Positions 3 through 3,882 of a stretch of 23,034 nt of DNA are shown piece after piece; position 1 is the stretch's first letter; each line of letters begins with the position of its first letter. The stretch comes from a virus: positions 1-23,034 of IMG/VR virus record IMGVR_UViG_3300048586_000098, one strand, 5' to 3'. Position numbers and translations under genes: made by a program. The notes beneath the pieces are model-generated. The model did not search any database. It was not told the DNA's origin and was given only the letters and a program-made list of their open reading frames with translations.

Positions 3-815
3 GAACGCAAGCGCAAGGCCGAAGAGAACCGCCGCCGCAACCTCGAGCGTGCCGAGCGTGAGCGGCAAGAGGCCATCGCCTCGGCCCGCGAGATCTGGGA
101 AGCGGGGCGCAAGGCGCAAGGAAGCCAGGTGCATGACTACTTGCGCCTGCGGGGCATTACTCCCGAGTTGTACCCGACCCTGCCGGTCTGCCTGCGGTTC
201 CATCCGGATCTGCGCTACACCGTCCAGGTCGATCGAAAGTGGGTCGAGGTTCACCGTGGCCCGGCAATGCTGGCGGCGATGCAAGGTGCTGACGGCCGAT
301 TCCGCGGCGTGCATCGCACCTGGTTCGATCTCGATCGACCGAAGGGCAGACCCGCGATCAGCCACCCGGTCACAGGCGAGCCAGTCAAGGTCAAGAAGAC
401 CCTCGGGTCGCTGAAGGGCTGTGCGATCAGACTCACGCCGCCGGCACAAACCATTGTCATGGGCGAAGGGATCGAAACCACGCTGACGGCGCTGGTTTCT
501 GGTGTTCCGCCCGGGGCTGCCTATTGGGCCGGGATCAGCATGGGCAACATGGCCGGGCAGCGGCAAATGGGCGTTGGCCTGAAGTTCGCGGGCCTGCCTG
601 ACCTGACCGATACCGAAGCCTTCGTGCCGCCGCAGGGCGTTCGCAGGCTGATCTATGTGGAGGATGGCGACAGCGATCCTCGATCGACGCGCGCCCAGAT
701 GCTGGCCGGGCTGCGCAGGGCGATGGCCCTGCGGCCGGGGCTGAAGGGCCAGATTGTCCGCGCCGGTGAAGGTGTGGACCTGAACGATGTTCTGATGGGG
801 GATGGGAATGACTGA
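3..815 (+). CDS. Toprim-domain primase-like protein (5' truncated by window edge)
   Basis: The frame is open from the window edge to the stop at 813-815, so the beginning of this gene lies outside; 270 codons are visible. An internal GTG at 129 could be read as a start, but the preceding frame encodes a charged Arg/Glu-rich helix that looks like protein, so the gene probably continues upstream. The Toprim core is visible: a GEGIET motif (around base 460) and a later YVEDGDSD acidic motif (around base 655), giving the conserved Glu and Asp-x-Asp metal ligands of primases and topoisomerases. The segment before it resembles the part that precedes Toprim in phage primase-like proteins. It overlaps the start of the primase-helicase gene, so the two probably form a split primase/helicase pair that starts phage replication. 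An N-terminal zinc-binding part, if any, is outside the window. Family call is secure; exact activity is inferred. Confidence 0.85.
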   Translation, partial: ERKRKAEENRRRNLERAERERQEAIASAREIWEAGRKAQGSQVHDYLRLRGITPELYPTLPVCLRFHPDLRYTVQVDRKWVEVHRGPAMLAAMQGADGRFRGVHRTWFDLDRPKGRPAISHPVTGEPVKVKKTLGSLKGCAIRLTPPAQTIVMGEGIETTLTALVSGVPPGAAYWAGISMGNMAGQRQMGVGLKFAGLPDLTDTEAFVPPQGVRRLIYVEDGDSDPRSTRAQMLAGLRRAMALRPGLKGQIVRAGEGVDLNDVLMGDGND

Positions 816-2661
816 TCCGGTGGATCGGGTGCGCGCCGTGATGGCGCAGCCTGTGGACGTCGACATGCCAGAGGATCTGGTGGTGGAGACGACGATACCC
901 CCGCATGACGAACTGGACGATCGGTTCGGCGACGAGGATGCACCCTATCCCGGTGACGACGCGCCGCCCCCTGACCCCCATGATGAGGATGATGACCCAA
1001 CCCTGCAGGACTGTGTCGAGCTGCCGCTGAATGACTTCGGCAATGGCAGCCGGTTCTGTGCCCACTTTGGGCAGGATGTCATCTGGGTTCCTACTCTGGG
1101 TTGGCACATCTGGTGTGGCACCCATTACGCGCTCGATCGGCACGAATTGGGGGTGCGGTCCAAGGCACAACAACTGGGCGAGCTGATTGCGCGGGAGATC
1201 CCGTGGATACGGCTGGAAGACTGGCAGATGGATGCGATCGGGCGAGAGCCTGAACTTCGCAGCCGTCTGGCGGAGTTGCACGCCACTGTCGGCGAAGATG
1301 GCAAGCGCACGTCAGAGACCGATGACGAGATTGCCAAGGTCATGCGGCAGATCTCGGCCCTGACTGACCTGAAGAAAGCCCTCGCGGACAAGCGCAAGGC
1401 GCACCGGAACTTTGCCCGCACCGCAGGTAACACGGCGCGGATCGATGCCGCGCTGAAGGAAGCATCGCCTCATATCGCGGTCACGCATGAAGAGCTGGAT
1501 GCCGATCCCCTGGCGGTGAACTGCCTGTCAGGCGTCATGCGGTTCTCGATCGACGTCGACCCGGAAACCTCGGTCAAGACGGCCATGGTCAAGCTCGATC
1601 CGCATGATCGCGCACAGCGGATTTCAAAGGTCGTACAGGCCAAGTATGACGACAAGGCCAAGTGCCCCAAGTTTCTGGCCTTCCTCGAGCGCGTCCAGCC
1701 ATCCTGGGAGATGCGGCAGTTTCTTCAACGATGGTTCGGCCTGTCTCTGACCGGCTTGCCCGTGCAGGCGCTGACCTTCTTCTATGGTGCGGGCGCGAAC
1801 GGCAAATCCGTGCTGGTCGAGCTGATGGCCCGCCTTCTGGGCGAGTATGCCGCCGAGATCCGGATTGAGACGCTGACCGGCAAGCATACTCAGAACGGGG
1901 CACAGGCCACGCCTGACCTTGTCTATCTGGTCGGCGCGCGGATGGCCCGGGCCTCTGAGCCCAAGGAAGGCGAGCAGCTGCAAGATGCGCTGATCAAGTC
2001 GATCACCTCGGGCGAGCCGATCATGGTGCGGCCGAACTACGGGTCATTCTTCCGGCTTTACCCCTACTTCAAGCTGACAATGTCAGGAAACCACAAGCCT
2101 GACATCCGCAGCACCGATGATGGCATCTGGCGCCGCATGAAGCTGGTGCCGTGGGATGTGCAGATCCCGGAAGCTGAACGCGACCAGAACCTTGGCGCAA
2201 AGCTGTGGGAAGAGCGCGACGGCATCCTGCAATGGCTGGTGCATGGGCTGCTCGACTTCCTCGAGGGCGGGCTGCGTGAGCCGGATGCGGTGCGCGATGC
2301 CACGCTTGAGTATCGAGAGGACAGCGACCCGGTCGGGTCATTCATTGCCAGCTGCTGTGACTGCACCGGTGAGGCAACAGACCGGATCCCGGCGCGCGAG
2401 CTCATGCTTGCCTTCAACTACTGGCTCGATTGCAGGGGCGAGGGAAAGTGGTCTGAGCGCCGCGTGTCATCCAGGCTGAAGGACAAGGCCGGACGATGGA
2501 AAAGCCCACGCGACGGCAAGGGTTACACCTCGGTCAAGTCCAGCGGCGTGATGACCTATGTGGGCATCAGGTTCGATGAGGAGTTCGGCCGAAGGTATCG
2601 CGATGTTCCCCGCGATCAGGAAGGACGCCCGATTACGGGCCGAGTTGCCCATGTCGACTGA
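808..2661 (+). CDS. P4/D5-type phage primase-helicase (SF3 helicase)
   Basis: This is a 617-residue replication protein. Residues 1-60 are very acidic and probably disordered. The middle carries a D5_N-like region, followed by a superfamily-3 helicase core: Walker A GAGANGKS at about residues 327-334, an acidic Walker B-like stretch (ARASEPKEGEQ), sensor motif SGNHKP and the arginine-finger region GIWRRMKLVPW. Family knowledge: such proteins form hexamers that unwind DNA at a phage or plasmid origin. The start at 808 is preferred over ATG 802 because the GGGGG at 797-801 sits 6 nt before 808. The gene overlaps the upstream Toprim gene by 8 nt, implying coupled translation. Directly downstream is the symmetric hexamer array, the obvious candidate binding target. 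Primase activity probably needs the upstream Toprim partner, since no primase active site is clear in the N-terminal half. Confidence 0.9.
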   Translation: MTDPVDRVRAVMAQPVDVDMPEDLVVETTIPPHDELDDRFGDEDAPYPGDDAPPPDPHDEDDDPTLQDCVELPLNDFGNGSRFCAHFGQDVIWVPTLGWHIWCGTHYALDRHELGVRSKAQQLGELIAREIPWIRLEDWQMDAIGREPELRSRLAELHATVGEDGKRTSETDDEIAKVMRQISALTDLKKALADKRKAHRNFARTAGNTARIDAALKEASPHIAVTHEELDADPLAVNCLSGVMRFSIDVDPETSVKTAMVKLDPHDRAQRISKVVQAKYDDKAKCPKFLAFLERVQPSWEMRQFLQRWFGLSLTGLPVQALTFFYGAGANGKSVLVELMARLLGEYAAEIRIETLTGKHTQNGAQATPDLVYLVGARMARASEPKEGEQLQDALIKSITSGEPIMVRPNYGSFFRLYPYFKLTMSGNHKPDIRSTDDGIWRRMKLVPWDVQIPEAERDQNLGAKLWEERDGILQWLVHGLLDFLEGGLREPDAVRDATLEYREDSDPVGSFIASCCDCTGEATDRIPARELMLAFNYWLDCRGEGKWSERRVSSRLKDKAGRWKSPRDGKGYTSVKSSGVMTYVGIRFDEEFGRRYRDVPRDQEGRPITGRVAHVD

Positions 2662-2686
2662 TTTCCCCGCACCCCATTTGCAAGGT

Positions 2687-3023
2687 TTCAGGGAGCATAG
2701 GGAGCATCCGCCTATCGCAGGGAGGATCTTCGCGGCCATGGGGTCCGGGGGGATATTCCTGCGAAAGCAGTGTGTTGCCAGCGTGCCAGGGAGTTCAGGG
2801 AGGATAGGGAGCAACTTCCGCGCTACGTATATGAGAGGCCATCATAGGGGGTTGAAGGGTAAGCCTGAGGCCGCTGTTCATATGCGTTATGGGAAAATAG
2901 CTCCCTATCCTCCCTGTCCTCCCTGCCTGCCTATCAACCATCTGGAATGGCTTGCATTTCTCTGCGTTTCACCTCGTTTCCGTTCCTCCCTGATTTTCTC
3001 TTTTCCTCCCTATCCTCCCTGAA
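2687..3023. repeat. Mirror-symmetric array of twelve AGGGAG/CTCCCT iterons (candidate replication origin)
   Basis: This gene-free stretch holds six AGGGAG hexamers starting at 2690, 2699, 2719, 2788, 2797 and 2806, followed by six CTCCCT hexamers (the reverse complement) starting at 2901, 2910, 2919, 2986, 3006 and 3015. The left block is arranged pair-single-triple and the right block triple-single-pair. Units inside pairs and triples are exactly 9 nt apart, and the single lies 20 nt from the pair on both sides. A 17-nt perfect inverted repeat (2796-2812 and 2900-2916) forms the inner arms. A further near-palindrome (2825-2834 with 2878-2887, 9 of 10 matches) shares the same centre near 2856. 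A purine-rich tract follows at 3021-3069. Position directly after a P4-type primase-helicase suggests iterons of the phage origin; this is inference, and an operator or large cruciform is the alternative. Confidence 0.75.
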
Positions 3024-3075
3024 AGGAAAAGCGAGAGACAAGATAGAGTGAGAGAAAAAGACTGAGGCACAAAAT

Positions 3076-3882
3076 ATGGGTCAGCGAGCAATGAAGGCAG
3101 GGACAGTTTCCGGATTGGTCAGTGGGTCAAATGAATTGGACCAAGGGCGCGAGGCCGATAAGGCCGCATGGAAGGCCAGAGTTGGAGAATGGCAGGCCCG
3201 GGTCACCGAAGAGGCCAAGAGGCTCGCGCGGGTGCTGGCACTGTCCGTGCCGCCCGAGGCCATGCAGGCCGCCCCTGTGGCCCCTGCGCGCGGCCCCATG
3301 CGTCTGGAGGATAACTGGATCGTGGGGCTTGGTGGTGCTCGGCGCCGGGACGGTGCCCATTGGCGTGATGTCTGTCCGCTGGAAGCCATGGTCGTTCAGG
3401 CCGCGCGCCGTCATGCCAGCCGCGGGACCGATGCCCCGTTCGTGCCGCCCTTCACGCCGGGGCAGATCGCCATCGCCGCCTACTATCGGACGCTTGTGGA
3501 GTGGCGTGAGGGATCGGCCATGAAGTGCGCCTCGCTCGAGGCTGGCCGCTCAGGCGGTGGTGCCGGTGGTCTGTTCATCGATACCTACATCGAACGGGGT
3601 GCCACACTTGCCCGCCTGCAGGACCGCATCGGCACTGTGGTGGTCATGGACGTGCGGCGGCATATGGATCGCGGCAATGCCCGGCGTCCGATCTCGGCGC
3701 GGCAAGCAGTCGATTCGGTTGTGCTGGCCGGGAAGGATCTGACATCGGTGCTCGCGGCCCATGGCTGGGCCACCAAGGCAGAAGGCGGTTGGGCTGCCCA
3801 AGGCAAGCACAGAAAGGAATTGCGCAAGGGTATCGCCGCCGCGCTGGACCGTATGCAGGGCTACTTCGATGAAGGGGCTTGA
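3076..3882 (+). CDS. Phage protein of unknown function, possible DNA-binding C-terminus
   Basis: This 268-residue protein has no family I recognise with certainty. ATG 3076 has a GAGG at 3064-3067 with suitable spacing; a second ATG at 3091 is possible. The N-terminal 75 residues are charged and helical, with an Ala/Pro-rich linker. The middle (about residues 75-165) contains a Trp-containing conserved-looking segment. The C-terminal 65 residues (ISARQAVDSVVLAG, then LRKGIAAALDRM) have a helical pattern that loosely resembles DUF6456-type C-terminal domains of alphaproteobacterial regulatory proteins; that resemblance is weak. The gene lies between the replication origin candidate and the packaging module, where many phages place a late-gene regulator or antiterminator. 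A regulatory role is therefore plausible but unproven. Confidence 0.6.
   Translation: MGQRAMKAGTVSGLVSGSNELDQGREADKAAWKARVGEWQARVTEEAKRLARVLALSVPPEAMQAAPVAPARGPMRLEDNWIVGLGGARRRDGAHWRDVCPLEAMVVQAARRHASRGTDAPFVPPFTPGQIAIAAYYRTLVEWREGSAMKCASLEAGRSGGGAGGLFIDTYIERGATLARLQDRIGTVVVMDVRRHMDRGNARRPISARQAVDSVVLAGKDLTSVLAAHGWATKAEGGWAAQGKHRKELRKGIAAALDRMQGYFDEGA

Follow-up and report, generated by a model that had tools for sequence, protein, structure and literature searches.

A mirrored two-armed iteron array behind a D5-type helicase gene, a probable replication origin in alphaproteobacterial phages

In phage P4, primase and helicase are fused in one protein, alpha, and the iterons and the separate crr element of P4 differ from the array described here. 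In PICI origins, two sets of iterons follow directly upon the 3′ end of the initiator gene (PMC6092414), and the origins belonging to SaPI Rep and Cch2 are found at the corresponding position (PMC7581432). The same position is occupied by the origin of pRN1, where an essential element with inverted arms lies behind the primase/SF3-helicase/winged-helix gene, and for both pRN1 and the Bordetella phage BIP-1 a stem-loop has been proposed as the origin (PMC4234260). On our best reading of the sequences, the array described here would be an origin of the known iteron/D5-helicase kind, and the novelty would lie in a rigid, mirrored and diversifying array carried by full-sized phages.

The array was found in a viral DNA stretch of 23,034 nt (positions 1 to 23,034 of the IMG/VR record IMGVR_UViG_3300048586_000098), hereafter the window. 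It lies in the spacer between a helicase gene and the gene of a 268-aa protein, p268 (Table 1). The first-pass annotation had attributed the upstream region to a P4-type primase-helicase; the D5/SF3 helicase was recognized as such, while the primase turned out to be encoded by a separate upstream gene. The p268 protein gave no Pfam or PHROGs match, and its homologues were detected at 36 of 100 array loci, the arrays elsewhere doing without it. Further on come a gene of HNH type, assigned through its homology to RcapNL, then a TerS-like one and the genes of TerL, portal, protease, capsid and tail. At the gene that follows the array, the sequence GGCACAA(A/G)ATATGG is conserved immediately ahead of the start or across it (3066–3079 in the window, approximately 8255–8268 in L007 and 127–141 in L067); it is possibly a ribosome-binding or terminase site.

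Table 1. Positions of genes and sequence elements in and around the array (window coordinates)
Feature	Position	Strand	Basis
Toprim/DUF7146 primase, cut at window edge	3..815	+	profile matches
D5/P4-type SF3 helicase, proposed initiator	802..2661	+	Pfam D5_N 1.4e-19; phrog_1156 2.4e-127
G-block CCCCGCACCCC (GGGGTGCGGGG on - strand), directly behind helicase stop	2665..2675	-	
Outer AGGGAG pair, left arm	2690..2704	+	sequence; matching position in relatives
Single AGGGAG, left arm, 20 nt from pair	2719..2724	+	sequence
G-block GGGGTCCGGGG, left arm; right arm without mirror copy	2740..2750	+	
Inner AGGGAG triple, left arm, 9-nt phase	2788..2811	+	sequence
Inner box TACGTATATGA, left of axis	2824..2834	+	sequence; box type in relatives
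Axis G-block GGGGGTTGAAGGG, imperfect copy, spans centre 2856	2847..2859	+	
Inner box, mirrored copy (TAACGCATATGA on - strand)	2878..2889	-	sequence; box type in relatives
Inner triple, right arm (CTCCCT on +)	2901..2924	-	sequence
Single unit, right arm	2986..2991	-	sequence
Outer pair, right arm	3006..3020	-	sequence
268-aa protein (p268), directly behind array	3076..3882	+	

All twelve AGGGAG units of the original description were recovered at their coordinates and on their strands, in the order 2-1-3 in the left and 3-1-2 in the right arm around an axis at 2856. The distances proved to be equally accurate: the clustered units are phased at 9 nt, the single unit is 20 nt from the pair in both arms, and the distance from the single unit to the triple is 69 nt in one arm and 67 nt in the other. 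The 17-nt perfect inverted repeat corresponds to the arms 2796–2812 and 2900–2916, and the second inner inverted pair, ACGTATATGA at 2825–2834 and TCATATGCGT at 2878–2887 (9/10 matching), has its centre at 2856 in common with it. That the array is not random was also upheld, since shuffling the 414-nt spacer (2662–3075) yielded on average 0.65 and at most 5 AGGGAG units compared with the 12 observed, and no 6-mer together with its complement exceeded 9 copies. Only three more AGGGAG copies occur in the 23 kb outside the array. Exact unit doublets were restricted to the array in the window, which is itself a fragment, and in ten other records, each checked whole. Structured RNA was considered as a candidate and rejected, as the array gave no Rfam match at E up to 1.

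The IMG/VR records were searched for the pattern of two AGGGAG at 9 nt, a gap of 75–105 nt and two CTCCCT at 9 nt. This mirrored-doublet pattern was present in 58 viral contigs, while a letter-reversed control of identical composition matched only one. An SF3 helicase of the same type is encoded on 56 of the 58 contigs: 48 carry it in the fetched stretch, two have a divergent D5 (L013, L028), and in six it is located elsewhere on the contig. The two exceptions are L056, which is cut 90 nt from the contig end, and L025, where no match was found in the 17-kb contig. The array lies nearly always just 3′ of the helicase stop, its centre usually 134–231 nt behind it. At four loci (L031, L061, L166 and L071, the last being RR1-A), extra genes stand between the helicase and the array, which persists there at a distance of 0.7–3.8 kb; the intervening genes of L031 and RR1-A include an Ant-type antirepressor.

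Since a search by AGGGAG finds only arrays written in that word, 147 non-redundant helicase loci, collected by protein similarity only, were screened for mirrored 6-mer doublets of whatever sequence. Doublets without mismatch were found at 66 of them, with a spacing of 9 in 62 of the 66, compared with 0/2940 in shuffled sequences, none in the helicase gene and 4/142 in the DNA 1–1.7 kb further on. When one mismatch was allowed, 87 of the 147 loci exceeded the 99% point of the shuffles. The frequency of arrays was 39/52 at a helicase identity of at least 42%, 45/77 at 33–42% and 3/18 below 33%; thus, by this search of the 147 loci, some D5 helicases, above all those below 33% identity, have no array. 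Some of the negatives contain an array that is degenerate or displaced (L155 and L170, recognized by eye; L166, at 744 nt).

The units were diverse at the protein-found loci (e.g. GGGGAG, GGGACG and CGAGGG), while the geometry was similar. Most six-plus-six arrays follow the steps 9, 20–23, 66–69, 9 and 9 in the left arm, 81–106 across the centre, and 9, 9, 65–67, 21–22 and 9 in the right arm, with few loci deviating from this series; the modal number of units per arm is five or six. Over all arrays, 1006 units are oriented in the expected way and 111 in the opposite way. In some clades (L012, L017, L029, L035, L040, L044 and L051), the outer cluster has its single unit reversed, mostly symmetrically in both arms, and this is a second version of the geometry. 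Relatives with 68% and 63% helicase identity have no AGGGAG doublet arrays; theirs keep the layout but are written in GGGGAG and GGGAAG. Other units are GGGACG in RcapNL, GGGCCTGAC in Pthi1 and GGACAGCTA in RR1-A, and a search for an AGGGAC unit across mixed records was informative for L172 only. It had been proposed that absence of the array beside the same primase in close relatives would speak against the idea. AGGGAG is indeed absent there, but the array is kept as GGGGAG, GGGAAG or GGGACG, so a word-based test of absence would have misled, because the closest relatives write the same array in other words.

Besides the units, two further types of elements are shared by the relatives. TACGC[AG]T boxes are located beside the axis (62 sites within the 500 nt compared with 6.6 expected), and blocks of GGGGT, one or two bases and GGGG occur 107 times across the loci where 2.4 were expected. 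By a looser pattern applied to 106 loci, G-blocks were found on the reverse strand behind the stop in 59, forward in the left arm in 54 and forward on the axis in 50, while the right arm was nearly free of them. The proposed mirror symmetry thus holds for the twelve units but not for the G-blocks, which in the window are confined to the left half and the axis. Being specific in position and strand, the G-blocks break the symmetry and give the element a polarity. If they were primer starts, which is speculation, priming would run rightwards from the blocks on the axis and in the left arm and leftwards from the block at the stop codon.

According to an AlphaFold model, the helicase carries a C-terminal winged helix at residues about 508–605, the fold itself spanning 510–601. 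In Foldseek searches with the full helicase, AsfvPrimPol and the poxvirus D5-type helicases ranked first, whereas the C-terminal domain alone gave the RFX1 DNA-binding domain as best hit, followed by AsfvPrimPol, both matches being weak (E > 0.04); the origin-binding domain of P4 was not matched by this domain in Foldseek. The helicase profile also matched the solved DNA primase chain 7ola, which we take to be SaPI5 PriRep1, across its SF3 and C-terminal parts. Partial Mantel tests on 100 loci, which compared unit similarity with the similarity of helicase parts given the rest of the protein, revealed that the C-terminal domain (508–605) tracks the unit (0.231, reached in 0/300 permutations), also within the 48 closer relatives (0.198, 1/300 permutations). 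The other four helicase domains, including the N-terminus, SF3 core and lid, gave no significant positive signal, and neither did the upstream primase or TerL as covarying partners. Inside the C-terminal domain, the signal peaked at residues 573–588 with a shoulder at 551–565; in the AlphaFold model, the peak coincides with the predicted wing (strands 576–580 and 583–587) and the shoulder with the helix before it (552–562). In RFX1, DNA recognition is mainly a function of the wing. Weaker covariation with the unit was seen for p268 (0.19, 8/300) and TerS (0.19, 5/300), and linkage of the genes could be the source of part of the covariation between the unit and the winged helix. However, it is the final 20 aligned residues of the helicase, those nearest to the array, that carry the signal, and the lid domain gives none.

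The array also persists outside the setting of a single phage type. Its units and geometry are unchanged across two large-terminase families (34 loci with phrog_9 and 40 with phrog_15), being thus independent of the terminase type. On the Methylobacterium plasmid NZ_CP089299 (L236), a D5 helicase gene is followed by mirrored GCGAG doublets (0/1000 shuffles), and no terminase or portal was detected by tblastn. Its cargo comprises ParA, a resolvase, an S24 regulator, a type I-E CRISPR-Cas set and chromate resistance genes, and the D5 helicase with its array is the sole replication gene recognized, a case suggestive of autonomous replication with this initiator. The phage-like plasmid pP88_h of Phaeobacter inhibens (L235) encodes a D5 helicase with a clearly scoring GGGGCA array; repA/repB partition genes, an acyl-homoserine-lactone synthase and an autoinducer-binding regulator are also present on it. 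Tritonibacter p5 has degenerate mirrored repeats just below the threshold, the Bradyrhizobium plasmid loci L238 and L241 showed no array by the test used, and no 9-nt repeats were found at the Thermaerobacter plasmid locus L240.

Considering the conserved position and geometry, the covariation of the unit with the winged helix, the two terminase families and the plasmid that retains both helicase and array, the region 2665–3020 is very probably a replication origin, a two-armed iteron array that directly follows its initiator gene and would be read by the tail of the helicase. The first-pass annotation had interpreted the array as a site with two arms to which a hexameric helicase binds, and hence as an origin. 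The comparative data support this for the helicase encoded next to the array, but not the claim that the origin is bidirectional: no inflection of the GC skew was seen there, and the G-blocks polarize the element. In the putative course of events, the C-terminal winged helix of the helicase would read the 9-bp units, and each mirrored arm of five to six units would seat one helicase ring, so that the two rings would face each other across about 90 bp. This centre would hold the second pair of boxes (TACGYRT) and the region of melting and priming, where the separate Toprim primase would then prime; bidirectional forks are likewise a putative step. The average G+C content of the array centre is 53% compared with 63% in the gene, i.e., lower, though not strongly AT-rich.

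Because the array lies between the replication and packaging genes, it could also be read as a packaging (cos/pac) site composed of cosB-like sites for the small terminase subunit. The terminase genes usually follow about 2–3 kb beyond the array, and the weak tracking of the unit by TerS similarity points in the same direction, as does a 26-nt cohesive end annotated within the right arm of the array of RcapNL. In this Rhodobacter phage (L067, NC_020489), the annotated end (40464–40489 and 1–26) lies in the gap that separates the inner triple from the single unit. The annotation is uncertain since the genome was listed as circularly permuted in a later paper (PMC8601537); either cos overlaps the origin in RcapNL or the ends are an annotation artefact. 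Packaging appears improbable, as identical units and geometry are combined with two terminase families, TerL similarity does not track the unit, and the Methylobacterium plasmid keeps helicase and array with no detectable terminase. Even less probable is that the array serves as an operator, bound by p268 or another regulator, from which the late genes or the 268-aa gene are controlled. The boundary between replication and packaging genes would suit such a site and p268 similarity weakly tracks the unit, but p268 homologues were detected at only a minority of the array loci, no sigma-70-like promoter or terminator was found at the array (a weak test in this group), and the plasmid retains helicase and array without late genes and p268.

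An extruded hairpin or cruciform, in which the repeats would be a by-product of pairing, has a precedent in pRN1 (PMC4234260) and would account for the 17-nt perfection of the inner arms, for a fold 5.6 sd better than that of shuffled sequences, and for the matching of spacer positions 7–9, which is about 0.70 in mirror-paired and about 0.59 in unpaired spacers. Mirror complementarity is, however, limited to about 35–70 nt from the axis (0.81 at 50 nt and about 0.3, near background, beyond 70 nt), the outer clusters too contain direct-repeat units in fixed phase, and the units covary with the winged helix. A stem-loop origin is thus unlikely and weaker than an origin recognized through iterons, although pairing may play a secondary role, since the match is slightly better in the paired than in the unpaired spacers.

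Beyond the single locus, it is possible, albeit doubtful, that these arrays represent a class of phage origins, widespread but previously unrecognized, that is built on a fixed chassis of five to six iterons per arm, one hexamer on each, forming a head-to-head double ring in DNA. The word, diversifying with the wing, would give each lineage a private replicon identity, and the GGGGTnnGGGG blocks would set polarity or primer starts. No paper describing such arrays was found in a literature search that covered few subscription journals; the new features are the conserved rigid geometry, the diversifying unit, the inner TACGCRT boxes and the asymmetric GGGGTnnGGGG blocks. If the origin reading is true, an overlooked intergenic gap of many alphaproteobacterial prophages becomes a predictable origin, and about a hundred natural pairs of word and winged helix become a source for the recognition code of D5-type helicases. 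The face-to-face placing of two hexameric SF3 helicases and the direction of a symmetric origin then also become testable questions.

Compared with the described systems, the P4 alpha system shares a P4-type helicase, a winged-helix origin-binding domain and repeated sites with our locus (PMC4234260), but here primase and helicase are separate genes, and one compact mirrored element stands behind the helicase gene. The likeness to pRN1 and BIP-1 consists in the inverted arms and in the position of the element behind a primase/SF3-helicase/winged-helix gene, whereas no iterons figure in the stem-loop descriptions of those origins. In BPP-1, which is nearly identical to BIP-1 (PMC4234260), we found mirrored repeats GCCTCGTTT with a 9-nt period flanking a palindrome that contains TACGTGTA, about 460–580 nt behind the primase gene (L243, approximately 26600–26710 of the record). 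The Rep-ori systems of SaPIs and PICIs (SaPI5 Rep and the E. coli PICIs) resemble the array in having the ori directly 3′ of a D5/SF3-type initiator gene and two iteron sets around a centre. In these systems, the iterons are recognized through the C-terminal domain of the initiator, apparently by two hexamers, and the same is proposed, from sequence comparison, for the helicase studied here. Unlike them, the present arrays have a fixed 9-nt phase with fixed cluster steps, inner boxes and asymmetric G-blocks, and a centre that is not strongly AT-rich as in PICI origins; because of this centre, we regard the array as working like a PICI origin rather than as being one. A further difference is that they are carried by full-sized tailed phages as well as a plasmid, so the two-armed organization, described as unique to PICIs, now extends to ordinary tailed phages and a plasmid.
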